From positions 62,001-126,000 of the forward strand of contig JAIQFP010000003.1 of assembly GCA_020073165.1 (NCBI GenBank): a DNA stretch of 64,000 nt. The letters are read 5' to 3'. The position numbers and the translations under genes are program-made. This stretch comes from Terriglobia bacterium. Lineage in GTDB: Bacteria > Acidobacteriota > Terriglobia > Terriglobales > Acidobacteriaceae. Under the pieces are notes generated by a model. That model had not been told where the DNA came from. It worked only from the letters and a program-made list of their open reading frames with translations, and ran no database searches. The stretch's first letter is position 1; the number at the start of each line of letters is the position of its first letter. Below, one piece after another: positions 51,157 through 64,000 of the stretch.

Positions 51157-51233
51157 TGGTGGCGGCGGTTGGACTCGAACCAACGACCTACGGATTATGA
51201 GACCGTCGCTCTAACCACCTGAGCTACACCGCC
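51157..51233 (-). tRNA. tRNA-Met (CAT anticodon)
   Basis: 77 bases with encoded CCA. Acceptor stem GGCGGTG / CGCCGCC pairs (one G-U), the T arm is GTTGG-TTCGAGT-CCAAC, the D arm has AGCTCAGGTGGTTAGAGC, and the anticodon loop is CTCATAA. One T-T mismatch closes the anticodon stem. CAT fits elongator Met; a tRNA-Ile2 with lysidine cannot be excluded from sequence. It lacks the initiator features. Confidence 0.9.
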
Positions 51234-51344: not shown

Positions 51345-51434
51345 TGTCAAACCTGGTGCGGTGTGTGGCTACGCGAATTGTTTGTCAGGAATACACGAAT
51401 TGAGTGTCAGGAACCTCGAATTATTTGTCAGGAA
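51345..51434. repeat. Left terminus with three direct repeats, probable transposase-binding sites
   Basis: Three copies of CGAATTrtTTGTCAGGAA, at 51374-51391, 51396-51413 and 51417-51434, spaced 21-22 bases apart (start to start). Each contains TGTCAGG, which matches the TGTCAA at 51345 proposed as the very end. Arrays of 18-22 base sites at the termini are characteristic of the Mu/Tn7/Tn402 class of transposons. Nothing coding is seen in 51234-51566. Confidence 0.6.
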
Positions 51435-51566
51435 GGCGTGAGGAAAGTGGCTGGACACACCGCGGCGTGTGCGGCCAGGAGTACCTTTCCAACCCTCCGC
51501 GCACGCCTTTTCAGAACTCGTTGGGGCGCTAACATCACCCCAATTGTAAGAGCAAAAATCGTTCGC

Positions 51567-52391
51567 CTAGCCGCCCTCGTACACCAGGCTGAGCGCTTCG
51601 CCGAAAGAGATGCCACGCTCGCGAGACAGCGCCTCCGCTTCGCGCGCAACCTCGGCAGAGTCCGCATTCACTTTGATCACGTTGGTTTCGGTGAACTTCA
51701 CAGGATGCGCACGCTGCAACGCTTCACCGAAGGAGATGTCTTCGCTGCGCGCCGTCGCTGCGGCCGTCGTCGCGATATCGACTGACTTCGTGTCTACCTT
51801 GATCGAAGGGGTCTCCGTGAAGTGGCCCGCATGGGCTTCCTCGATCACCTGGCCCAGGGCTTCGCAAAAGGAAATGTTCTTCTCCGCCGCGCGGATCTCG
51901 GCTGCGCGGGCTCTCTCGATGGACTCAGGCGAAGCCTTCGTACCGCGGCCCTCGGTGAAGTTGATCGCGCTCCCGGCACATTCGATGGTGTCGAACTTCC
52001 CTTCCGAAAAGGTCACGTCCGCAAGACCCTTCACCGATGGAATGGCAGCTCCCAGAAAACCGACATGCCGCAGTGACAGCGGGCGCCCGTCCGCGCCGCG
52101 GTAGAAAGCGACCGATCGCTTCTTGAATCGCCCTTCTCCAAAGGCTTTCACAAACTCAGGTGTCACCTGTTTGAATTTTGCGAGCAGCGTGTCGCCGGCA
52201 CGCTTCAGCGACTCCACCCAGCCGTATGCCGGCGCATCGTCCTGCGGGTGTCCGATGACCAGTGGCGCCTCATGCTGCGCGGGGTTGTAGTTGTTCACCA
52301 GCACGTCCAGATCGGCCGGCGTGTAACGGCCCTTCTCGCCGTAATCCCCACTCCTGAAAATCTCGATCCAATCCCTCAATCCCGTCGCCAT
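51567..52391 (-). CDS. Mu gpI-like phage protease/scaffold protein
   Basis: 274 residues. The N-terminal 150 residues resemble the Mu I protein (DWIEIFRSGDYGEKGRYTPADLDVLVNNY, APLVIGHPQDDAPAYGWVESL), a prohead protease. The C-terminal 120 residues hold three copies of a short helix repeat built around ISF-[CG]-EAL, separated by 25-40 residues, which may be a scaffold-like oligomerisation region. It is the last gene before the element end and overlaps the portal gene by 16 bases. Confidence 0.75.
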   Translation of the reverse strand: MATGLRDWIEIFRSGDYGEKGRYTPADLDVLVNNYNPAQHEAPLVIGHPQDDAPAYGWVESLKRAGDTLLAKFKQVTPEFVKAFGEGRFKKRSVAFYRGADGRPLSLRHVGFLGAAIPSVKGLADVTFSEGKFDTIECAGSAINFTEGRGTKASPESIERARAAEIRAAEKNISFCEALGQVIEEAHAGHFTETPSIKVDTKSVDIATTAAATARSEDISFGEALQRAHPVKFTETNVIKVNADSAEVAREAEALSRERGISFGEALSLVYEGG

Positions 52392-53746
52392 CTCTGCATC
52401 CTCCTTAAGCCCGCCAGCATCTCTTCGTTCATTTGGGGATCACCGCAAAAGTTGGGCGCGGCGCCGCTCGGTGCCGGCTGCGGTGACCGCGGAGTGAGAA
52501 CGGTGTCGCCCTCTGCGGGCCGTGGCCTTCCATAAGCCTCCCGCAGATAGTTCTCGGTGAAGTCGAGGCCCATAGCCTGCAGCAACTCGTCGATCTTGAC
52601 GCGAATAGCCAGATCCTCGGAGGAGGCGGTATTGATCGACCAGCGCGGCATCGGCGCGTCCGGGCCGAAGTTCCACATCACCAGCCGACGCACCAACTGC
52701 CCGTTGACCACTGACTCCAGAGCCCGTGCCTGCTCCACCACTCGCTGATGGAACATTTCCTGATGCACCTGGCCTAGCGCGTAGCTGCCGGCGCCTTGTT
52801 CGCTGCCGTGGCTGGTGAGGGTCTCGCCCAGAATTGCGCGGGCGATCGCCAGTTCCATCCGCTGGACCAGGCGCTCGTACACGGCCGGGTTTTGCGAGCG
52901 CGCCGTGGTGAGCAGCGAGTCCACCATCTTGAAATTTTCCGGGACGGCGATCGCGATCTTCTCGACCAGGGCCTCGGCGGCCGCGAGAGCCTTTTTTTGC
53001 TCGTCGTCAGTCGCGCCCTGCGGGTACATCACTGCCGCCGTGCCCGGACCCTTTTCTGCGTACCGCAGCCAAAAACGGATTGCGTTGCGCTTGAACCATG
53101 AAGGCCAGAAGGCGCGCCGCAACAGCGGACTGCCGAAGCGGTTTCGCTTGCGCGGGTTGTAGCTGAAGATCAGGAACTTTTCTTCCGGCACCAGTTTGCC
53201 GCCGGCCTGGGCGGAAGGATAGCTGAGGAAGCGCAGCGGCCCCACCTGGGGCAGCATGCGCTGTTCACCAAAGCAGAAGAACTCCTGTGGGCAGTCGTGA
53301 ATGGAAGCTAGGCCAACTTCCCCGGCGGTGATCTCATAGTTGATCTCAGCGATCGCGAGGCCGTAGGCGGGCGCGTCGAGCAATGCACCTAAGACCTGGT
53401 GAAATCCTTTCAGGCCGTCGAACCGCTGCTGGATGAAGTCCGCAACGTTCTGCGCTTCTGCGCTGTCATCGGCCGGCGCAATCGAGCGCTCGCGGCCGAG
53501 CACTGCCAGCTTCAGCGTCGCCAGCAGGCCCCCGATGTCATCGTCTTTCTCTTCCAGGTCGGAGTAGTAGTCAAAAGCCTCGGGATAATTCCCGATCATG
53601 GCCTGCCAGATCCGCGTGGGCTCGGTGGTGCCGCCAAAGCCGCGAGCCAGGCCGAGCGTGCCCGCACCGTAGCTGAGCACCCGCAGCTCGTTCTCGTTGA
53701 CGATCTCGCCGGTTGGCGGTTTCGGAATTGTCACCGTCTCAACCAT
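52376..53746 (-). CDS. Mu gp29-like portal protein (DUF935 family)
   Basis: 456 residues. The family pattern includes RIWQAMIGNYPEAFDYYSDLEEKDDDIGGLLATLKLAVLG, broken here into its conserved parts, then EKGPGTAAVMYPQG, AIARAILGETLTS and GSYALGQVHQEMFHQRV. DUF935 proteins are the portal proteins of Mu-like phages (DNA entry vertex). The C-terminal 30 residues look degenerate. Its product normally acts with the terminase, for which no gene is visible. Confidence 0.8.
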   Translation of the reverse strand: MVETVTIPKPPTGEIVNENELRVLSYGAGTLGLARGFGGTTEPTRIWQAMIGNYPEAFDYYSDLEEKDDDIGGLLATLKLAVLGRERSIAPADDSAEAQNVADFIQQRFDGLKGFHQVLGALLDAPAYGLAIAEINYEITAGEVGLASIHDCPQEFFCFGEQRMLPQVGPLRFLSYPSAQAGGKLVPEEKFLIFSYNPRKRNRFGSPLLRRAFWPSWFKRNAIRFWLRYAEKGPGTAAVMYPQGATDDEQKKALAAAEALVEKIAIAVPENFKMVDSLLTTARSQNPAVYERLVQRMELAIARAILGETLTSHGSEQGAGSYALGQVHQEMFHQRVVEQARALESVVNGQLVRRLVMWNFGPDAPMPRWSINTASSEDLAIRVKIDELLQAMGLDFTENYLREAYGRPRPAEGDTVLTPRSPQPAPSGAAPNFCGDPQMNEEMLAGLRRMQRWRRD

Positions 53747-53850
53747 TGCGCCTCAAAATCTCTTTTTCAAAAGGGGGCGCTTCGCCAGCCGCCCCCTCCT
53801 TCGAGGACCGGGAAGGCCCATGTCGCCGCCCCGGCGGAGGAAACATCTCT

Positions 53851-54528
53851 TCATGCCGCGGTGGCAGGCTCAGCTTCAGAAGCCGGGCTCTCCTCCAGCA
53901 GGCATTTCTTGATCTTCGCTGCAACTGCGTCGAAGAGCTTGGAATCCCATTCCGCCCACCCCAGGAAATTAACGTCGTGTTGAATCATCCCATCGAGCCG
54001 AAAGCCGTCACTGGCCTTCTGGCCAAGGGCTTTCAGCGCGTGACTCATAGCCGACCTTGACAGCCTGGAGTAGTCGGGGAACGTCGATTCGAGCGCTCTC
54101 AGTACAGCACACAGGTCGATGCTGGCCTGGTCAGCCTCCTGGACGGAGCGCACAAAGGCAGCGGCCTTTGCCGAGATCTCCTTTCCCAGCGCGGCACGCC
54201 GTGCGCACAATTTTTGCGCGTTTCTGATGCGGGCGACCTTCTGTTCCTTGGTCTGTCTCTCGCGCAGACCGCTCAGTCTCGCTTCGAGACCCGTGAGCGC
54301 GAAGCCCAGATCGGCTGCCAGTTGGCGGGCCGCGTTGGCTTCGCCGGCCAGGCGCTCCACTTCGGCCTGTGCGCCGGCATCATCTTCACCAACCGCCTTC
54401 ACCAGCAATTCGCGCCGCCGCTTTTCCGCCTGCTCCGCCTGGCGTTCCACTTCCTTCCTTCGTGCGTCTATCTCGCTGCACTTGGCGCTCACGCTGGCGA
54501 TCTGTTCTTCGATTGAAACGGTCTTCAT
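53851..54528 (-). CDS. Coiled-coil phage protein of unknown function
   Basis: 225 residues. Residues 10-110 are a charged coiled coil (KEVERQAEQAEKRRRELL and similar heptads), followed by about 100 residues of mixed fold with SAMSHALKALGQKASDGF. I do not recognise the family. It lies in the structural gene run between tail tube and portal genes and may be a scaffold, tail or chaperone-like protein (inference). Confidence 0.55.
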   Translation of the reverse strand: MKTVSIEEQIASVSAKCSEIDARRKEVERQAEQAEKRRRELLVKAVGEDDAGAQAEVERLAGEANAARQLAADLGFALTGLEARLSGLRERQTKEQKVARIRNAQKLCARRAALGKEISAKAAAFVRSVQEADQASIDLCAVLRALESTFPDYSRLSRSAMSHALKALGQKASDGFRLDGMIQHDVNFLGWAEWDSKLFDAVAAKIKKCLLEESPASEAEPATAA

Positions 54529-54560
54529 TGTTTCCTCCCTCGATTTTCCCCGGCTCGTCG

Positions 54561-55571
54561 CTATGCGCCCGCCACCAGATACGCGGGCACGTTGTTTTTG
54601 GCCGTGACCTGCACGATCTCGGTGTTGGCCTTCTTGATCAGCGAGTCTTCATTCGACTCCACCTGGATGACGACGTCGTTGGTGTCGGTGGCCGGTTGCG
54701 CCGCCGAAAGATAGATTGACGGAAACAGGAAATCCAGTTCGCAATCCGCTGCGGTCGCGATGTTGATCTGGACCTCGGTTTCGGTGTCGCCGAGAAAGCG
54801 GGTGACCAGGTCATCCGTCTCTTTGGCGGCAATGGTCATGGCCAGCTTGCAGGACGGATGCCCGATCTGCAGCCGCGTGCCGTACAGTACGCTGCCCGGC
54901 CCTTTGAACGGCGTAATGTCCTGGGTCAGCGTCACCGTCCAGCTCAGCACGCGGTCGGGATCGATCGCGGTGGCTGCGCCGGGATTGCCGATCGAAAATG
55001 CCGCATCGGAAGCCAGCAACTGTTTGATCGTGGGCAGCGCCGGCATGTTGGCGATAGCGCCGTCCGTCGCCTTGCCACTGCCAATCATGTCGAGGCGGGC
55101 CTGCACCACGCCGCGGCCGCTGCCGGAGAATTCGGCCACGTTGATGCCCACGTCGATGAACTTGCGTTTCAGCGGGTCGGAGTCTTCCGAATAAATCGTG
55201 GTGGCCAGCGCGTTGCCGGTGGTTTGCTGGAACTTGATGGTGTGGGTGTACGGACTGGCCTGGCCGGCATCGGTGACCAGTCCCATCAGGAACGCCGGAA
55301 TCCAGCCCAGCAAAAAGTCGTCCACATCGAGGGTGATGGAGAAAGCCACGTCCTGGTCGGTGGCCACGCGGTAAGTGGGGAAATCGTGGCCTTTGCCCGT
55401 CTTGTCGCGATCGCTGCGATACTGCCGGGTGAGCGCCACATAGGCGCCGGGATCGAATTCCAGGCGGTGCGTCAGGTCAGCATCGATCAGCGCAGTCCCA
55501 AAGGCGCTCTGCTGCTTCGGGCTGATCACCAGATTGCGCTTCTTGTAGACGTTCTGCAGGTTCCAGGCCAT
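54561..55571 (-). CDS. Phage tail tube-like protein
   Basis: 336 residues from ATG 55571. It begins MAWNLQNVYKKRNLVISP and has the beta-rich, low-Cys composition of tail tube proteins with the pattern PTYRVATDQDVAFSITLDVDDFLLGWIPAFLMG. Repeated beta sandwich features occur in the C-terminal half (residues 200-330). Assignment to the tail tube family is based on these patterns and its place in the phage gene set. A longer frame to 55682 adds a sequence unlike the family. Confidence 0.6.
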   Translation of the reverse strand: MAWNLQNVYKKRNLVISPKQQSAFGTALIDADLTHRLEFDPGAYVALTRQYRSDRDKTGKGHDFPTYRVATDQDVAFSITLDVDDFLLGWIPAFLMGLVTDAGQASPYTHTIKFQQTTGNALATTIYSEDSDPLKRKFIDVGINVAEFSGSGRGVVQARLDMIGSGKATDGAIANMPALPTIKQLLASDAAFSIGNPGAATAIDPDRVLSWTVTLTQDITPFKGPGSVLYGTRLQIGHPSCKLAMTIAAKETDDLVTRFLGDTETEVQINIATAADCELDFLFPSIYLSAAQPATDTNDVVIQVESNEDSLIKKANTEIVQVTAKNNVPAYLVAGA

Positions 55572-55579
55572 GGTTTTTC

Positions 55580-56083
55580 TTAGGCGCTCCCCTCGTCGCT
55601 GTTGCGGGCCACAATCGAGACCTCGCCGTTTTCCAGCGGCACCGAAAGCCATCTCGGTGGCAGCCAGTTTTGTGTGGTGCAAGCCATGTCGGTTTCCAGT
55701 TGATTCAGCACGGCCGGACCCGCTGTGCCTGCCTCAGTTGCATTCACTTCCAGGCAGGCCTGGCAAAGGTCATGCTCTGCAACGGCATCGGCTGCGCCAC
55801 AATTCCGGCAGCGCGCTCGACGCGAAAAGGAAGTGACCAAGCACAGCGCACACCATGACGTCGCGCCAACGCACAACGCGACGATCCCCAGGACTAGCAG
55901 CGGTGGCCCCGCCAGAAGCAAACGCAGGACTCTTATCAGGTTCGATTTCCCCTGCCCTCCGCAACGGTGCGAACAATAAAAAGCCAGCCCCGCGATCGAG
56001 ACCGCGAAGATGGTCGCGAGGAAAAGTGGCGCGACGATCAGCAACTTGAGCGGCCCGGACTTCATGTCGCGCAGCAGCTTCAT
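55580..56083 (-). CDS. Small membrane protein with a zinc-ribbon-like segment
   Basis: 167 residues. Two membrane helices (about 11-35 and 50-78) are followed by CRNCGAAD...CQACLE, two CxxC pairs as in a zinc ribbon, and then a 60-residue soluble tail. It overlaps the tape-measure gene stop (ATGA), so it is translationally coupled. The family is not known to me. It may be a holin-like or tail-associated protein (speculation). Confidence 0.45.
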   Translation of the reverse strand: MKLLRDMKSGPLKLLIVAPLFLATIFAVSIAGLAFYCSHRCGGQGKSNLIRVLRLLLAGPPLLVLGIVALCVGATSWCALCLVTSFSRRARCRNCGAADAVAEHDLCQACLEVNATEAGTAGPAVLNQLETDMACTTQNWLPPRWLSVPLENGEVSIVARNSDEGSA

Positions 56084-58767
56084 ACAACACCCTCTCCCGT
56101 GTAAGCCAGGTCATCCAGCCGCAACCCGGCTTTGATCTCCTTCGCCCCGCCCTTCCTCATCCAGGCCCTGAAGCTAAGCGCGTCGATGGCATGGATGTGG
56201 ATGTGGAACTCGCCGGACGGACGGCCATGGTTGATGGCTTCGAGCTGCGCCCGGTTCTGTCGCGTGGCCTGAGGATTGATTACGTACTCACCGTCCTCCA
56301 GGATGGCCAGCCCCTTGCGTGCGGAGCCGCCCAGCGTGAAGAGACCCCCGGTCTGGAACTCCGGAGCCCCAAAGATCTGCGCGCCGCGGCTGGTGCGGTC
56401 CTTGTCGATTCCCTCAATTTGCTTGTGAATCTTCGTCGCCCGCGCCGGGATGGTCTGCCAATAGATCAGCCGCCCCGAGTGGCCGATCTGGTTCATCTCC
56501 GCCCACGCCTGCTTCTCCAAGTCGTCGAGCTGCTGGTAGGCCGTGGCCGCGTCTTCCTGATAGTTCTCATAGGCCAGCAGGGTCTGGTGCATCGCCGGGT
56601 AGTACTTGCCCAGCACCAGGTCCCAAGCCTGCTTCTCCCGCGCGCGCCGCCCGAACACGCCACCGAAAATGCCGGCAATCCCGCCGATGATCGCTCCGAT
56701 GACAGTCCCGATCCCAGGCAGGATGGCTGTGCCCGCCAGCGCACCGCCAGCAGCACCCGTAATCCCCCCCAGCACAGGGCTAGCATATTGGTAGCCCAGG
56801 CCGATGCCGGTGATTCCGAGTTCGAGGCCGAGCATCCCCAGAATGCCGCCGGAGAAAAACTTCCCACCGATGGTGATGCCGTGCGTGAAAATCTTGGCGA
56901 TGGCCTTTTGCAGCAGCGACCCGAGCAGCGTTTGCGCCACAAATCCCTGTGCCTTTTGCTGCGCAGCCACCCCAGCCGTCCCAACCCCGGCAGAAAGCGT
57001 GGCCGCCGCCGCTGGCGCGACCGCCGCCAGTCCGCCTGCACCGGGAATGGAAAGACCGGCGAGCGCGCCGAATAGTCCTCCGCCGTTGGCACCTGCCGCC
57101 GGCGCCGCGTTGCCGGTCAGCCCAGGAATTGTGCCGCCGCTGACCGCTCCTCCCGCGCTACTGCTTCCGCCGCCGATGCCGAACAGGCTGCCCAGCAGCG
57201 ATCCCAGCAAACCGCCGCCGCCGATGCCGGCAGAGGCGCTGCGGATGGAATTCATGGAAAGCAGCCACTCCGCAACGATCTGGAAGAAGAACTTCTTGAT
57301 CTCCGACAGGATGCGCTGCCCAATGTTCCCGCTGGTGATGTCGTCAAACACCGACTCCAGCTCCCCGGCGAGTTCGTCGCGCATCTGGCGGTTTTCATCC
57401 AGGATGCGGGAGTTGGTTTCACTCCAGATGGCCTCGCGGCGGAACTGGGCATCGGCTTCGGTGATCTGATGATCGGCAAGCAAACGGTCGATCTCCCGCA
57501 TGCGGTCCTGATAGTCATTCACAATCTGCGCGGAAGCTCTCAGCCAGGGCGGAACCGATGCGGCAGCCGCCTGCTCCTCAATCTGCGTCGTCTGATCGGC
57601 GGCAGACTGCAAGGCGCGGTTGGTTTCCACCGTTTGAAGATTTCTCAGCGCATCCACAGCTTCATCCAGGGAGTGTTGCGCCGCGCGACGCATCGGGTCA
57701 GTGGCGTCGAGGTTGCCGAATTGTCTCTGGAAATCGACCCTGAGCTTCAGAATCTGCTGGCTCGTCCGCTCGGCAATCTGGTCGATGCCAGTGGCCGCCG
57801 CTAGTGTGGCCTCATTGGCTTGCTGCTCGACCTGCCGGCTGAAGTCTTCCTCCAACTTATAGATTTCGCGATTCGCGATGTCATGCTGTAGAACCCTTTG
57901 CTTTTCCGCATCGGCCTGGGTCAGCACTCCCCGCTTTTCGAGCACGTCGATCTGATTTATGGCCTCTCTCTCTTTTTCCAAAGCCGCGGCTGAGCCTTCG
58001 AGTCCAATGCTGGCACGCTGGTTTTCGAGTTGCCGGATCTCGTCCAGGTTCTTGCGACGCAAGGCCACGATCTGGGCATTCGTCGCCCTCTCCTGCGCGA
58101 GGCGAACTTCTCCAACGGTTGCGAGGATTAATTTGGCGGCGTCGGCATATTCCTGTGTGCCGTAGTCGAACTTTTTTCCGGCGGCGTCGAGTTGTTGCTG
58201 CTGCAACCTGGTCAGGTCCTGGAGTTGAATCTGCGCCTGCGCCTTGAGCGCACCGTAGCCCTCTTTCCCCGCAGTGGCCGCAGTTTTTTGGAACTGCAGC
58301 AGTTGATCTTCCAGCGGCTTCAGGAAGGATTGCTCCTCGGCGATTTTGCGCGCCTGGGAGAAATCGACCGTTGAGCCAGTGACCCAACCCACCACATTCT
58401 CTTCAAACTCAAAAACCGCTTCGAGCGCATGGACCGCGGTGGTCTTCAAGTCTTCCAAATGATTCACCGCCTCCACCACGGCCGCGCCCAGAGCTACCAC
58501 CACGCCCACCTTAAATGCAGCGCTCAGCGCGTCCGACACGCCCGGCAGCTTGCTCAGCAATTTCTCCAGGCTGCGCGGCATCGTAATTCCGAGGGTTTGC
58601 GCCATCAGCAGTTCGGTGTCATGCGCGCGTTCCTGGTCGCGGCTCATGCGCGCGAAGACGGCGGAACCTTTCTGTCCGGCAGCATCGAGCCCCGCGCCGA
58701 TCCCCTGCAGGCCATGGACCATGCCCGACTCATCCAGCCGGACCTCGATTTCTAGCGCTGTCGCCAT
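56080..58767 (-). CDS. Phage tail tape-measure protein
   Basis: 895 residues from ATG 58767. Typical tape-measure layout: N-terminal segment of about 100 residues, long helical coiled-coil regions (150-500), and a Gly/Ala-rich hydrophobic centre (about 520-730) with many GxxG and AxxA runs. The C-terminal part has a conserved ILEDGEYVINPQATRQNRAQLEAIN segment, broken here by neighbouring charged residues, which is frequent in tape-measure proteins. It sets tail length and is ejected during infection. Confidence 0.8.
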   Translation of the reverse strand: MATALEIEVRLDESGMVHGLQGIGAGLDAAGQKGSAVFARMSRDQERAHDTELLMAQTLGITMPRSLEKLLSKLPGVSDALSAAFKVGVVVALGAAVVEAVNHLEDLKTTAVHALEAVFEFEENVVGWVTGSTVDFSQARKIAEEQSFLKPLEDQLLQFQKTAATAGKEGYGALKAQAQIQLQDLTRLQQQQLDAAGKKFDYGTQEYADAAKLILATVGEVRLAQERATNAQIVALRRKNLDEIRQLENQRASIGLEGSAAALEKEREAINQIDVLEKRGVLTQADAEKQRVLQHDIANREIYKLEEDFSRQVEQQANEATLAAATGIDQIAERTSQQILKLRVDFQRQFGNLDATDPMRRAAQHSLDEAVDALRNLQTVETNRALQSAADQTTQIEEQAAAASVPPWLRASAQIVNDYQDRMREIDRLLADHQITEADAQFRREAIWSETNSRILDENRQMRDELAGELESVFDDITSGNIGQRILSEIKKFFFQIVAEWLLSMNSIRSASAGIGGGGLLGSLLGSLFGIGGGSSSAGGAVSGGTIPGLTGNAAPAAGANGGGLFGALAGLSIPGAGGLAAVAPAAAATLSAGVGTAGVAAQQKAQGFVAQTLLGSLLQKAIAKIFTHGITIGGKFFSGGILGMLGLELGITGIGLGYQYASPVLGGITGAAGGALAGTAILPGIGTVIGAIIGGIAGIFGGVFGRRAREKQAWDLVLGKYYPAMHQTLLAYENYQEDAATAYQQLDDLEKQAWAEMNQIGHSGRLIYWQTIPARATKIHKQIEGIDKDRTSRGAQIFGAPEFQTGGLFTLGGSARKGLAILEDGEYVINPQATRQNRAQLEAINHGRPSGEFHIHIHAIDALSFRAWMRKGGAKEIKAGLRLDDLAYTGEGVV

Positions 58768-58991
58768 GGTGCGGGGATGTGGTCTCCTTGATAGATGTGA
58801 CAGTTGCACGGCTCAGCCAGGATCGAATTGCGGCGGCGTTTCAGCCGCGCGACTTCGGTCCCGCACTTCGGACAATGGCGATCCCTGCCTTCCAGGAGGG
58901 CAGATAAGCGTTGCATGAAAACCTGAAGCTCTCGCTCCCGCGCCTCTTCGGTTTCAGCATGCGAGACAAAATTGACCACTACTCTGCTCAC
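58752..58991 (-). CDS. Small phage protein with zinc-binding cysteines
   Basis: 79 residues from GTG 58991, with GGAGG seven bases before the codon; the longer frame to 59237 has no such site. It begins VSRVVVNFVSHAETEEARER, continues with a helix and has CPKCGTE and later CNCHIY, four cysteines placed as in a small zinc knuckle. Overlaps the tape-measure gene by 16 bases. Function unknown. Confidence 0.5.
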   Translation of the reverse strand: MSRVVVNFVSHAETEEARERELQVFMQRLSALLEGRDRHCPKCGTEVARLKRRRNSILAEPCNCHIYQGDHIPAPWRQR

Positions 58992-59121
58992 CGTTGAACC
59001 TCCACCGCGCCATGTGCGGCACGCCTTCTGACGGGCGACTGAGCTTAGACTTGTCGAGTTTGCTTGGCGCTGTTGGGCCATCACAGGATCTCCTCGGGGG
59101 ATGCAGCGCGGCAGGACCGGA

Positions 59122-59370
59122 TTACGGGCGACCGACCTTGCGGTACGGCCCGCGGGTTTGGCCGGTGTTGGCGAGACGGCGGTCGCGGAATGCGCGGAGC
59201 GAAGCAGTCGAGACGCGCCAGTTCGCTCGATCTGCATAACGTATCGCCGTGATTTCGCCTGATTCGATGGCCCGGTAGACCGTCCTGCGGCACACGCACA
59301 CGGGATCGAGGATGCGCAGCGCCGCGGTCACGGTCACCAGTTCTTCTTGATTGCTCTGGCCCGGCATCAT
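59122..59370 (-). CDS. Excisionase-like helix-turn-helix protein
   Basis: 82 residues. The pattern TAALRILDPVCVCRRTVYRAIESGEITA, with following IRYADRANWRVSTASLRAFRDRR, is that of excisionase/MerR-type winged helix proteins that bind DNA by a recognition helix. The C-terminal tail RGPYRKVGRP is basic and AT-hook-like. It may control element transposition or structural gene expression (inference). Confidence 0.6.
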   Translation of the reverse strand: MMPGQSNQEELVTVTAALRILDPVCVCRRTVYRAIESGEITAIRYADRANWRVSTASLRAFRDRRLANTGQTRGPYRKVGRP

Positions 59371-59556
59371 TTGAAGGAAGGGACGACTTCATCTTATCGG
59401 GGAGGAAGCAACTCAGCGATTGACTGGCGAGGTACGCCAGCCGTTGCTGGGTGTTGGCCGTGGAATTTGGCGCGCTTGGGTGCTTTGGTCGATTTGGTCG
59501 GAACTGCTCAGAAGGCGATTGCGATTGCCTCGGTTGATTCCGCATACCCGCCGCCT
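59371..59556. other. Phage intergenic gap
   Basis: 186 bases between the excisionase-like gene and the repressor gene, on the minus strand. No gene is seen; it probably holds the promoter of the structural operon. Confidence 0.4.
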
Positions 59557-60510
59557 TCATTTTTTTCCTCGACGGGCCGTGCTCCGTTTTCGCAGGCGTC
59601 GGCCTTTCTCGCCTTTGTGCACGCTCCCCAATGGAGCGGCCGCAGTGACCGTGCATACAACGCGGCCCAAGATGCGCCAGGAGGGATCTTCTTTGGTCCC
59701 AACCCTGATGGGAATGACGGCATCCCGCCACGCCGACAACATCGGGCTGATCCCCGTGTATGCTGTGCCGGCCTCGTTCGGGATGTACATGTCCATTTGC
59801 AGGGCGACCTGCAGGTCGGGCATCTCGGCTCGCGTGAGCACAGCAACGCGCGTTTGCTCGCCCACCACGTACAGATGGCGGACATATATGCCCGAGCGAA
59901 ACGCTTTTCCCGAACCCGTGTTGAAAGCTACCACCTTGGACCCGTGCAGGAGGTCTGCGTCTGTCTCGGATGAGTCCACGGCAACAAATTCGGTACTGGT
60001 AGAGTCCCCGACTACGTCCTCGCGAGGAACCCTCAAACAAGTGGTTTTCTCAGCATTCGGAACAAACGCGGAGGGTATGGGCAACAGCATCTCGACATCG
60101 CTGGGTGGCGCCAGCGAAGGCATGCCGACATACCCAATGTCCCTGAGTACTGGAAGGTGAACAGCGTCGCCGACCGGTGCTGAGGGCCGTTCTCTCAGGA
60201 GACTCTTGAAGTTCGGAACCGTTGTCTCGATCGTCCGCTGGGTTACTCCCGCTTGCAGAAGAAACCAGAGCGGATCTTGTCCAGACTCCGCAGCGAAGTT
60301 GGCCAGTTTGACGTAGCTCTCCGAGGATGGTTCTTTGTTCCTTTGGCCGGTCTCCCAGTAGTAGACCATGACATCACTGAGGTTCAGTCTCCTGGAAAAA
60401 GCGGCGCGATTCAGCCCCACAGCCGTCCGCAGAGTGATGATCTTGGAGGGCCACCCGCCGGTATTGATGACCTCGGTCCCCGGTTTTTTTGTGGTTGACT
60501 TCTTAACCAT
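59557..60510 (-). CDS. CI-like phage repressor (HTH plus S24-like C-terminal domain)
   Basis: 317 residues. An N-terminal XRE-type helix-turn-helix (IITLRTAVGLNRAAFSRRLN, LSDVMVYYWETGQR) is followed by a linker and a C-terminal domain like LexA/CI proteins. A GDST in DVVGDSTSTEFVAVDS may be the S24 serine region and is followed by HGSKVVAFNTGSGK; the catalytic Lys is not certain, so autocleavage is unproven. It is divergent from the regulator and transposase genes, as repressors in Mu-like phages. Confidence 0.75.
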   Translation of the reverse strand: MVKKSTTKKPGTEVINTGGWPSKIITLRTAVGLNRAAFSRRLNLSDVMVYYWETGQRNKEPSSESYVKLANFAAESGQDPLWFLLQAGVTQRTIETTVPNFKSLLRERPSAPVGDAVHLPVLRDIGYVGMPSLAPPSDVEMLLPIPSAFVPNAEKTTCLRVPREDVVGDSTSTEFVAVDSSETDADLLHGSKVVAFNTGSGKAFRSGIYVRHLYVVGEQTRVAVLTRAEMPDLQVALQMDMYIPNEAGTAYTGISPMLSAWRDAVIPIRVGTKEDPSWRILGRVVCTVTAAAPLGSVHKGEKGRRLRKRSTARRGKK

Positions 60511-60587
60511 AGTTAGTGCCTAATGTAGTTAGCATTTGGCTAGTTGCTGTTGGACCACAGCCAGTTTACGATTTGGACTCTATCCCA
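60511..60587. promoter_or_regulatory. Operator/promoter region between repressor and transposition genes
   Basis: A 77-base AT-richer stretch with repeated TAGTTAG-type units: ATAGTTAGTG, AATGTAGTTAGCATT and CTAGTTGC. The second unit has ATG..CAT symmetry. Such repeated half-sites fit operators for the CI-like repressor that control both divergent transcripts. Confidence 0.45.
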
Positions 60588-61031
60588 ATGAGCGCCGCGC
60601 GCGCAATACCGGAGATCGGCCGGGATTCAGGGGAGAACCATTCTGGGTACGGGGCCGTTGCTCCACTGACGGTGGCATCCGACATCGACTCGGCAATCCG
60701 TTGCCTTCTCGCGGAATCGATCAGGCGCTGTCCCAAGAGTCGCGAGCAAATTGCAGAGCAGATGTCTGCCCTGACGGGACAGGGCATAACAAAGGTGATG
60801 CTCAACGACTACGTCGCCAGGTCGAAGAGCGCCCGCTTTCCCGCAGTGTTCGTGATGGCTTTCTGCGCCGTGGTCGGCGATGATCGCCTTCAGCGCTTCT
60901 TGCTGGATCGTCGGTTGCGCAACCTGCTGGAGCTTGGCGAGCACAGCGTAGAAGTGAATCGATTGCGCGGAGAAATTGCGGAAAGCGCCACGGCGAGGCA
61001 GCGCAAGCCCAAGGTGAAGAAGGCGTCATGA
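60588..61031 (+). CDS. Mu-like phage regulatory protein, HTH-like
   Basis: 147 residues from ATG 60588; a longer frame from 60516 runs through the operator region and is not used. The central part (IRRCPKSREQIAEQMSALTG, KVMLNDYVARSKSARFPAVF, FCAVVGDDRLQRFLL) matches a small regulatory protein encoded directly before the transposase gene of Mu-like phages. Stop overlaps the transposase start (ATGA). Confidence 0.7.
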   Translation: MSAARAIPEIGRDSGENHSGYGAVAPLTVASDIDSAIRCLLAESIRRCPKSREQIAEQMSALTGQGITKVMLNDYVARSKSARFPAVFVMAFCAVVGDDRLQRFLLDRRLRNLLELGEHSVEVNRLRGEIAESATARQRKPKVKKAS

Positions 61032-63079
61032 ACTCGTGGCTGGAGTCCGGCGTCGTGCAGCAGTTAGAGCAATGGAGTGACTCGACATTGCGCTCTAAGA
61101 TGCGCAGCGGTCAGTTGCGCTGGCGCTTCAAGCCTGGAGCAGCTCGTCTCCGTAATGGTGTGGCACCGCGCCAGATATCAATAGCCTGCCTTTCCGCACA
61201 CGCGCAAATGAAACTCGCGCACGCCCGCCTGGCCGAACCGGCGCCCACATCCATCATTCTCGCATCGGAAGCCGGCGCGCAGGCTTCCATGTTCACTACG
61301 CTGCCGCCAATTCCCGAGAAGGAACGTCTGGTGCCCAATGCGGAGCAGACGGCGATCGCGCAGCGCAAGCTTGAAGTCATACGTCCGTTGTTGGATCGCG
61401 CCAGCGGCCAGGTGTCGGCGATCCGCCTGGCGGACGGCCGCGTGGTTGGCACATTGGAAGAATTCGCCGCATACATCGGCGAGCAGCATAGAGTGAGTGC
61501 CCGGACCGTCCTTCGTTGGTATGCGAGGTTCAAATCCAGGGGCTTCGAGGGCCTCGCGACAACTGCGCGCACCGACCGAAACAAATCACGATATTTTCAG
61601 CAGTTCCCGGCGGCCGCCGAATTCGTGCTAAGGAAAAGAATCGGCGAGCGCCTGAGCGTTGCCCTCACCTATGACGGTTTGGTGCGCGAGTGCGCACGCC
61701 TGAAAGTTCCGGCACCTTCTTATGAAACGGTGCGACGCTACTTGGAGTCGCTGCCCGGCCCCGTGAAAATCATGGCGCTGGAGGGCGCGCGCAGCTACGA
61801 CAATAAATGCTCCCCCTACATGCCTCAGGACTACCGGAGTGTGGCCCCTGGCGCCCTTTTCGTGGCAGATCATTGCCGCCATGACTGCTTCACCGTGGCA
61901 TCGGATGATTGGTTCCCCGGCGCGCGGCCAGGCGTTCCAATCAGGCTTTGGTTGACTGCGTTGATGGATTGGGCATCGCGAAAGATCGTAGGCGCCGCCT
62001 GGAGTCTGGTGCCCAGCAGCGATAGCATCAGCAGCGCCCTGCGCCAGGCGATCGAGACTTGCGGCATTCCCGACGCGATACTTTTGGACAACGGCCTCGA
62101 TTTCAGCAGCATCCACAGGATCTCTTTCTCGCCCGAAGCGCAGGGTGTGCTCGTCAGACTCGGCATCCGGGCCGTCACTTCTCTGCCCTACAACGCTCGC
62201 GCGAAAAACATTGAGCGGTTCTTCGGGACGCTGCATGCCCGCTTCGATTTGCTCTTTCCAACCTACTGCGGGAATTCACCCTCACACCGCCCGCAGGAGT
62301 GCGAGGCGCTGCTGCGAGAACACCAGAGGTTGAGCAAGGCAGGGCAGTCCCATCTCAGCAGGCTGCCGAACGCGACTGAGTTCATCGAGCTCGCCAAGCA
62401 GTGGATTTTTACTGAGTACAACAACCGCCCGCACTCTGGACAGGAGATGCAAGGCAAGAGCCCCAATGCTGTCTGGTCGGCAGTTGAGCATCGGCGCGTG
62501 CCTGACAATCCGCATCTTCTCGACGTGTTGATGTGGCAGAGACAAAAAAGAAAAGTAACCTCCGGCGGCTGCGTCCAGCTCTACAACCAGCGATATGAGC
62601 CGGTGGACGAGTACGACAAAGACGGAAAGGTCATCCTCCCCAGCGCCGCCAATCTCTTCATGGAGATCGACAGAGATGTGATGGTGGCCTGCGATCCCTC
62701 CAACCTGGGAGACGCGATCGCGCTCGATCTAGATGGGCAAGTGATCGGCCGGTTGCAAGCGCAAAAGCTCATTGCCAGAGGGCCGGTGGCGCGCGAGGAA
62801 GTCAAAGCAGGAATGCGAAAGCAACGGCGTTTCGCGCGCGTTGTGAAGGACTATGTCAGCTTCCTTTCCGAAGGACACACCACCGAACTTGATCACCTGC
62901 GCGGGCGCGCAGGCGTTTCAACCCTGAAACGGCTCCCCGCCGCGCCGGAAGTGATGCCCAGAGCGCGGGCGGTGAATGATGATCTTTGCGTAGAGGAGAT
63001 CGTAGAAAGGTTTCTGAAAAGGCGCGAGGCCCCTTACATCGAGGACATCGTCTCCAACTTTATGAAAGAAGGCGAGTAG
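61028..63079 (+). CDS. Mu-type DDE transposase (MuA-like)
   Basis: 683 residues. N-terminal DNA-binding regions (about 1-240, with ARTVLRWYARFKSRGFEGLA as an HTH) precede the catalytic core. The DDE residues can be placed at Asp281 (ADHCRHD), Asp354 (LLDNGLDF) and Glu396 (NARAKNIERFFGTLH), with 41 residues between the second Asp and the Glu. C-terminal region 480-683 resembles the MuA beta barrel and the MuB-interacting tail. The gene is followed 1 base later by the ATPase gene, as in Mu A-B. Confidence 0.9.
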   Translation: MNSWLESGVVQQLEQWSDSTLRSKMRSGQLRWRFKPGAARLRNGVAPRQISIACLSAHAQMKLAHARLAEPAPTSIILASEAGAQASMFTTLPPIPEKERLVPNAEQTAIAQRKLEVIRPLLDRASGQVSAIRLADGRVVGTLEEFAAYIGEQHRVSARTVLRWYARFKSRGFEGLATTARTDRNKSRYFQQFPAAAEFVLRKRIGERLSVALTYDGLVRECARLKVPAPSYETVRRYLESLPGPVKIMALEGARSYDNKCSPYMPQDYRSVAPGALFVADHCRHDCFTVASDDWFPGARPGVPIRLWLTALMDWASRKIVGAAWSLVPSSDSISSALRQAIETCGIPDAILLDNGLDFSSIHRISFSPEAQGVLVRLGIRAVTSLPYNARAKNIERFFGTLHARFDLLFPTYCGNSPSHRPQECEALLREHQRLSKAGQSHLSRLPNATEFIELAKQWIFTEYNNRPHSGQEMQGKSPNAVWSAVEHRRVPDNPHLLDVLMWQRQKRKVTSGGCVQLYNQRYEPVDEYDKDGKVILPSAANLFMEIDRDVMVACDPSNLGDAIALDLDGQVIGRLQAQKLIARGPVAREEVKAGMRKQRRFARVVKDYVSFLSEGHTTELDHLRGRAGVSTLKRLPAAPEVMPRARAVNDDLCVEEIVERFLKRREAPYIEDIVSNFMKEGE

Positions 63080-63080
63080 C

Positions 63081-64000
63081 ATGGCTCTCTCTGCAGCCGC
63101 GCGCAAGAAGCTGTTGGAAGTAGATCTTCCGGCATCGCAGTCGGTTCGGGCCGAGCTGCTCGATTACCTGCGTCGGACCGGGCTCGAAGTCCGCGACTTT
63201 GCCAGCCGCATCGGCTATGCCACGGTAACCCTGGGATTTTTCCTGCAGGGCAGCTATCAATCGGTTGCCGGCAGCGACCGCGCCATCCGCAGCGCCATTC
63301 TCGAATTCATCCGCACCCATCCGATCGGCGGTGACGTCGAAGTCGAAGCCGGAAGGGTTTACGAGACGGGCAACTTCAAAATTCTGAGACGCCACTTCTA
63401 TGAGTGCCTCGACAGGGGTTTGGCGGTGTACTGTTACGGACCTGCCGGCAGCCAGAAAACGTATCTTTTGACATCGATGGTGTCGGAGCTGAACCGCGCC
63501 GAAGTGGCGAAGAACGGCACCGCGCGCCGCGCCTTCATGGTATATGTGCGCGATGGCATCCGGCCGAACGACTTGCTCAAACGCATTGCCGAGGCAGCCG
63601 GCACTCTCAGCGTGGGCAGCACAGACCGCATCCTCCGAAATCTGCGGTTTGACTTCCGCGGCCGGCGTGTTCTGATCGTCTTCGACGAAGCCCAGCACAT
63701 GGACAACCACTGCCTAGAGGTCGTGCGCGAACTGCTCGATTCCCCGCCGCACGCGGGCCTGCTCTTCGCCGGCAGCCACAACCTGAAAACCATCTTCCAG
63801 CAATTCGACCTGGAGCAGTGGCGGTCCCGGATTCACGCATCCCGGTCATTGCCGGGGATCTCGGACGAGGAAGCGCGGACGATCGTTACCGGCGAGATCG
63901 GGAGTGGATTCCCGGCGAAAAAGATCGCTGGACTGATCGAAGCCGCGCGCGTGGAAGACCCGCGCCAGGGCAGGAACTACACGTACATCTCCGCCCGCAA
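63081..64000 (+). CDS. MuB-like AAA ATPase, N-terminal part
   Basis: At least 306 residues; the frame is open to the edge. An N-terminal HTH-like region (residues 15-60, LRRTGLEVRDFASRIGY) precedes an AAA domain. Walker A is GPAGSQKT (residues 120-127), with Gln in place of the third Gly, and Walker B is RRVLIVFDEAQHM. LLFAGSHN follows as sensor region. Together with the DDE transposase it forms the MuA/MuB pair: MuB selects target DNA and activates the transposase. Confidence 0.85.
   Translation, partial: MALSAAARKKLLEVDLPASQSVRAELLDYLRRTGLEVRDFASRIGYATVTLGFFLQGSYQSVAGSDRAIRSAILEFIRTHPIGGDVEVEAGRVYETGNFKILRRHFYECLDRGLAVYCYGPAGSQKTYLLTSMVSELNRAEVAKNGTARRAFMVYVRDGIRPNDLLKRIAEAAGTLSVGSTDRILRNLRFDFRGRRVLIVFDEAQHMDNHCLEVVRELLDSPPHAGLLFAGSHNLKTIFQQFDLEQWRSRIHASRSLPGISDEEARTIVTGEIGSGFPAKKIAGLIEAARVEDPRQGRNYTYISAR

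Follow-up and report, generated by a model that had tools for sequence, protein, structure and literature searches.

In the right-hand part of the window analysed here, a stretch of 64,000 nucleotides from a Terriglobia bacterium (G000:C7:62001-126000), lies what is, on balance, probably a complete Mu-type transposable element that was derived from a Mu-like phage by reduction and now acts as a phage satellite. The contig runs on past the window, and reading the element through into this right extension showed that it is complete. It spans window position 51364 to window-equivalent 66250 (14,887 bp), with its right end 2,250 bp past the window. The first-pass annotation had described a minus-strand order running from a repressor to a protease and then to an element end; profile matches agree with this order, and the left end falls exactly at 51364. 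The terminus that starts there (TGTGGCTACGCGAATTG...) has an inverted match at window-equivalent 66250, and CGGTG is duplicated outside. The right end carries one inverted copy of the ~22-bp repeat that is found at the left end (Table 1). In a search of the whole genome, near-exact copies of the end repeats occurred only at these two ends, and no further copies or relics of the element were found. The element has every feature of a Mu-like transposable element, namely MuA and MuB, TG...CA ends with a 5-bp duplication, and end-specific repeats. The combination of MuA/MuB, matched ends and a 5-bp target duplication shows that transposition brought it in as a unit of 14.9 kb.

Table 1. Features of the Mu-type element, in window coordinates unless marked as window-equivalent.
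Feature	Position	Strand	Basis or remark
Target-site duplication CGGTG	51359..51363, second copy window-equivalent 66251-66255	.	identical 5 bp abutting TG...CA termini
Left end, TGTGG terminus and three ~22-bp direct repeats (TACRCGAATTGWKTGTCAGGAA)	51364..51434	+	presumed transposase sites
Mu-I-type head maturation protease without scaffold middle	51567..52391	-	phrog_976, 4e-53
Three tandem copies of scaffold C-terminal motif (within protease gene)	51588..51965	-	motif HMM, structure model
Mu-type portal	52376..53746	-	Portal_Mu, 1e-78
Coiled-coil protein, common to reduced elements	53851..54528	-	sequence comparison; not detected in full-size relatives
Tail tube	54561..55571	-	Phage_tube_2, 3.3e-11; start ATG 55571 from alignment with relatives
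Membrane/zinc protein	55580..56083	-	no relatives found
Tape-measure-like protein (ORF open to 58809)	56080..58767	-	homologous to gene in tape-measure slot of full phages
Small zinc-finger protein (ORF open to 59237)	58752..59120 (approximate)	-	profile search
HTH_17 / excisionase-like regulator	59122..59370	-	profile search
HTH repressor-like protein (rep)	59557..60510	-	profile search
Regulator, first gene of transposition operon	60516..61031	+	phrog_2345
MuA-type DDE transposase, 683 aa	61028..63079	+	phrog_310, 2e-87
MuB-type AAA ATPase	63081..64000 in window, ends 64074	+	phrog_296, 1.6e-23

Past MuB, the right extension contains a gene resembling the MuA N-terminal HTH, an HTH_3 gene and a GemA-like gene before the right end is reached. 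The name GemA-like is a provisional one, based on similarity among reduced elements and on a sub-threshold GemA match of the copy in the related element G176. The gene between MuB and the HTH_3 gene (L002:14059-14613, window-equivalent 64058-64612) resembles the N-terminal HTH region of MuA alone and is perhaps a regulator that binds the element ends; fragments of this kind also adjoin MuA in the related elements G176, G162 and G407. A tRNA-Met (CAT) at 51157-51233 sits ~130 bp outside the left end, and the insertion is not inside the tRNA. Host genes begin past the right end with a MacB/FtsX-type permease, and the host DNA further right (L003, G000:C7:131901-151000) holds an apparent NiFe hydrogenase large subunit, a b-type cytochrome subunit and hyp maturation genes. 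A search for the empty site within the same genus matched the right flank only.

The late genes of the element are a partial set. The earlier observation that no terminase or capsid gene is present held when the contig was extended to the right until the other end was found, and MuF, chaperone, baseplate/tail tip and lysis genes were likewise absent from the element, which is thus not a complete Mu-like phage with terminase, capsid, MuF, tail tip and lysis genes. A search for a terminase elsewhere in the window genome, run with the terL of a full-size relative (L004) as query and without a positive control, gave no match. PDB sequence searches also returned nothing. The portal has a shorter C-terminus than its relatives, still in frame, and no MuF gene follows it. 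The tape-measure-like protein matches the long gene that in full phages follows the tube and two chaperone-slot genes. Neither it nor its full-phage homologue is recognised by any Pfam or PHROG model, and its probable identity as a tape measure follows from this homology, its length and its position. It has no match among INPHARED phages and no close relatives in IMG/VR, where one distant relative of the transposase was found.

The first-pass annotation had proposed either that the phage is rearranged or degenerate, or that this is a specialised particle-like system. The last of these, read as a self-sufficient particle of the tailocin or gene-transfer-agent type, is highly improbable: portal, protease, tube and tape measure are retained, but the element has neither capsid nor terminase genes, nor any for a baseplate, tail tip or lysis, and searches elsewhere in the window genome found no related portal or capsid. 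As the element encodes too little for a particle of its own, a helper-dependent satellite is the likelier reading. Degeneration fits poorly, as described below.

To place the gene order, we compared the element with full-size relatives obtained in portal searches (11 genome loci and 52 viral-contig loci, plus G048; ~60 in all). Where their contigs reach the late genes, the order is terS-terL-portal-MuF-protease-capsid-gp36-tube-chaperone slots-tape measure; in L004 the labels terL, terS, MuF, capsid, protease and tube were confirmed with PHROGs and Pfam. None of the ~60 relatives has the window order (tape measure-tube-coiled coil-portal-protease), which was seen once overall, and the normal head module that might have lain beyond 64000 is absent. 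The order had been noted as inverted relative to the transposase. The internal order is indeed reversed, unlike in all full-size relatives whose contigs reach these genes, but the divergence of late genes from the A/B strand is the ordinary layout in this phage group, so that we rejected it as an anomaly. A simple inversion of the late module was also rejected: the order along the window strand itself is reversed, and an inversion preserves order relative to transcription.

Candidate ends were found in four full prophages, whose lengths are 41.3, 43.3, 43.5 and 41.9 kb, some of these ends having been picked among tied scores and being less certain than those of the window element. The ends of one, G033, resemble those of reduced elements (TGTG..T.C.GGAATT). 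The full-size Acidobacteriota Mu-like prophages (G048, G033, G016, G032 and the L018-L076 contigs) have in common with the window element MuA/MuB, a portal, protease, tube and tape measure, late genes that lie on the repressor side and run divergently, and TG...CA termini with a 5-bp duplication. They differ in their size of ~42 kb, complete head, terminase and tail genes, canonical order and single scaffold motif. The coiled-coil gene was not detected in them; the coiled-coil alignment was too divergent for a scan of the viral contigs.

Searches with the window tape measure, transposase and coiled coil traced reduced relatives in other Acidobacteriota. Four of them carry a transposase (G176, G407, G194 and G162), and G050 and G055 are partly assembled fragments, the tape measure of G050 not being assembled together with its element. 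G176 (14,489 bp, duplication GTCGT) encodes rep, a scaffold-motif protein, the coiled coil, a tape measure, an HTH protein and a tube, with the tape measure preceding the tube as in the window element. G407 (15,713 bp, duplication GCTGT) has the coiled coil, a protease-scaffold, a tape measure, a gp26-like gene and terS. G194 has the coiled coil, a scaffold-motif protein and a tape measure but no tube, and no ends were assigned in an end search. G162 (15,734 bp, duplication GTTCC; ends plausible, at a score of 14 against a background of 13) has a capsid protein, two chaperone-slot genes and a tape measure, and no motif gene. Its capsid protein (L195:7630-8715, G162:C29) matches Phage_capsid_4 at 5.7e-39; no terminase or portal was detected in the same element. 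Where ends are available, sizes are thus 14.9 kb for the window element and 14.5, 15.7 and 15.7 kb for the others, against 41.3-43.5 kb for the four full phages. G707, from another part of the phylum (L194, G707:C83:15000-34900), combines a tyrosine integrase with primase/helicase-like, terminase-like, neck, coiled-coil, scaffold-motif and tape-measure genes, and is an integrase-type counterpart of the window element.

A feature that most of these elements share lies in the scaffold. Protease/scaffold proteins of full phages end in a C-terminal motif of ~40 residues (...S..LAE.A..L..E..I.YGEAL..V...). With an HMM built from 39 full-phage scaffold C-termini, and no reduced-element sequences in training, one copy was found in 50 of 53 full phages. 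The reduced elements contain tandem copies: four in G194 (E 1.5e-38), three in G407 (3.5e-27), three in the window element (9.5e-19), and two each in G176 (8e-17) and G050 (8e-8, the second copy weak); G707 is also matched (2e-16). Six of the eight examined reduced elements combine the coiled-coil gene with two to four tandem copies. In the window protein, all invariant protease residues are present (H48, S93, H109), whereas G407 has lost H48 and H109 and retains its three motifs, and the motif proteins of G176, G194 and G050 have no protease domain. The structure model of the window protease-scaffold shows the last motif copy as a helix-turn-helix (pLDDT ~90) and a good protease domain, joined by a poor linker. 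Its top Foldseek matches are herpesvirus proteases (best E ~0.007), which is weak but consistent with the Ser-His-His type.

Could the element nevertheless be a defective prophage, a Mu-like phage cut down by internal deletions and rearrangements to the transposable core and a random, functionless remainder of late genes? We consider this unlikely. In its favour, the relatives of the element are ordinary phages of ~42 kb, the trimming of portal and protease coincides exactly with the missing MuF, the reduced elements have mosaic gene sets and several origins, and no helper was seen. On the other hand, the frameshifts, stops and truncated genes of a decayed prophage are not found: ~93% of the element is coding and every ORF is intact, the portal C-terminus and protease N-terminus being shorter in frame, and the ends are exact. 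Random remainders would also not be expected to amplify scaffold motifs in six separate elements, to share a coiled-coil gene that was not detected in full phages, or to be alike in size, and a reverse-order tape measure-tube-portal on one strand is not readily produced by random deletion. Finally, the genes shared by reduced elements are under purifying selection between two species: dN/dS between G055 and G176 is ~0.44 for the coiled coil, 0.5 for the tape measure and 0.3 for the HTH gene (Nei-Gojobori, at high dS).

In the MuA tree the reduced elements are scattered, and the AU test rejects them as one clade (p 5e-63), with the reservation that G162 is a long branch and that recombination of A could mislead. 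Reduced elements thus appear, from their transposase sequences, to have arisen more than once, and the window element was probably derived by reduction of a Mu-like phage. Their recurrence in related bacteria, under selection, suggests that they are particle-borrowing parasites rather than wreckage, though the exact order of the window element was seen once. With an incomplete set of virion genes and a length of 14,887 bp, it falls within the 7-20 kb range of phage satellites (PMC13376191). Some observations speak against a satellite: the gene sets of reduced elements are mosaic (G162, G194 and G050 differ), and a portal and tube of its own are unusual for one.

If the element is a satellite, it probably depends on a helper, as its gene content indicates. 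Within the cell it would move by its own MuA/MuB, and between cells it would travel in the particles of an incoming Mu-like helper. The three scaffold motifs of its protease-scaffold would bind the helper coat protein and compete with the helper scaffold, and tandem motifs without a scaffold body may alter assembly so that capsids suited to a 15-kb genome result. The portal, tube and tape measure of the element would replace helper parts in the hijacked particle, and the helper would provide terminase/packaging, capsid, baseplate and lysis proteins. The precedent is CpmB of SaPI1, whose C-terminal motif is the same as that of the helper scaffold and which competes for coat protein, with small capsids as the result (PMC5644958). 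By analogy with CpmB, the motif would bind coat protein in Mu-like phages, and its tandem copies are candidates for the factor that redirects helper assembly or packaging. At ~0.35 of full-phage size, the reduced elements would be in the range expected for a smaller shell. We tentatively propose, at a little under even confidence, that these elements form an undescribed, repeatedly arisen class of transposing satellites that hijack capsid assembly with tandem helper-scaffold motifs and supply their own tape measure, tube and portal.

A further point against a satellite is that searches of the rest of the eight genomes with reduced elements found no relatives of the portal or capsid. With no resident helper in sight, a helper would need to come from outside. 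This lack of a resident helper also suits a resident defence element, in which late-gene derivatives mainly act as dominant-negative parts that poison the assembly of incoming Mu-like virions, and which is never packaged but spreads by transposition and vertical descent. The G407 protease, with two histidines lost and three motifs, could be read in this way, and assembly interference is a known defence strategy of prophages and islands (PMC10884400, PMC11364771). We nevertheless regard this as quite improbable, as PADLOC found no family match to the late genes, and as defence leaves unexplained the retained tape measure, tube and portal, the terS homologue of G407, the terminase-like gene of G707 and the similar sizes. 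As interference is also normal for satellites, the two readings overlap.

Several known satellites resemble the window element in part. Like SaPI/PICI, it belongs to the ~15 kb size class and encodes a protein with a scaffold C-terminal motif (in CpmB capsid redirection, that of the helper's scaffold), and some reduced elements also have a terS-like gene. Unlike them, it uses MuA/MuB transposition instead of integrase excision, its motif is tandem, and it has its own portal, tube and tape measure. It shares with cfPICI the encoding of part of the virion itself, but has no capsid or terminase; the only reduced element with a capsid protein is that of G162. P4-like satellites and AH14b of Pseudomonas (PMC4936722) are similar in size and also have no head or lysis genes, whereas the window element has Mu transposition in place of integrase, AlpA and P4-type primase. 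The tyrosine integrase and family replication module that characterise PICI, P4-like satellites and cfPICI are thus absent from it, and by these modules it belongs to none of the three families; among reduced elements only G707 has an integrase. Mu-type satellites are not described in any of the literature searched.

Whether satellites originate by reduction from phages or by de novo assembly is under discussion (PMC11389934). Here reduced and full-size elements share host group, transposase and ends, and the reduced form seems to have emerged repeatedly, so that this host group could allow a direct test of the reductive route. The tandem motif suggests an unusual way of interfering with capsid assembly.

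The coiled-coil searches also led to other loci. A match in G198 was discarded as a membrane-channel-like protein. L192 (G700:C445) and L193 (G721:C323) contain coiled-coil relatives (E ~1e-13) without recognised virion genes; by eye, the gene next to the relative looks integrase-like in L192 and primase-like in L193. In L168 (G026:C15:371000-384426), a distant coiled-coil relative adjoins an 894-aa tape-measure-like ORF and an integrase-like gene, again judged from inspection.
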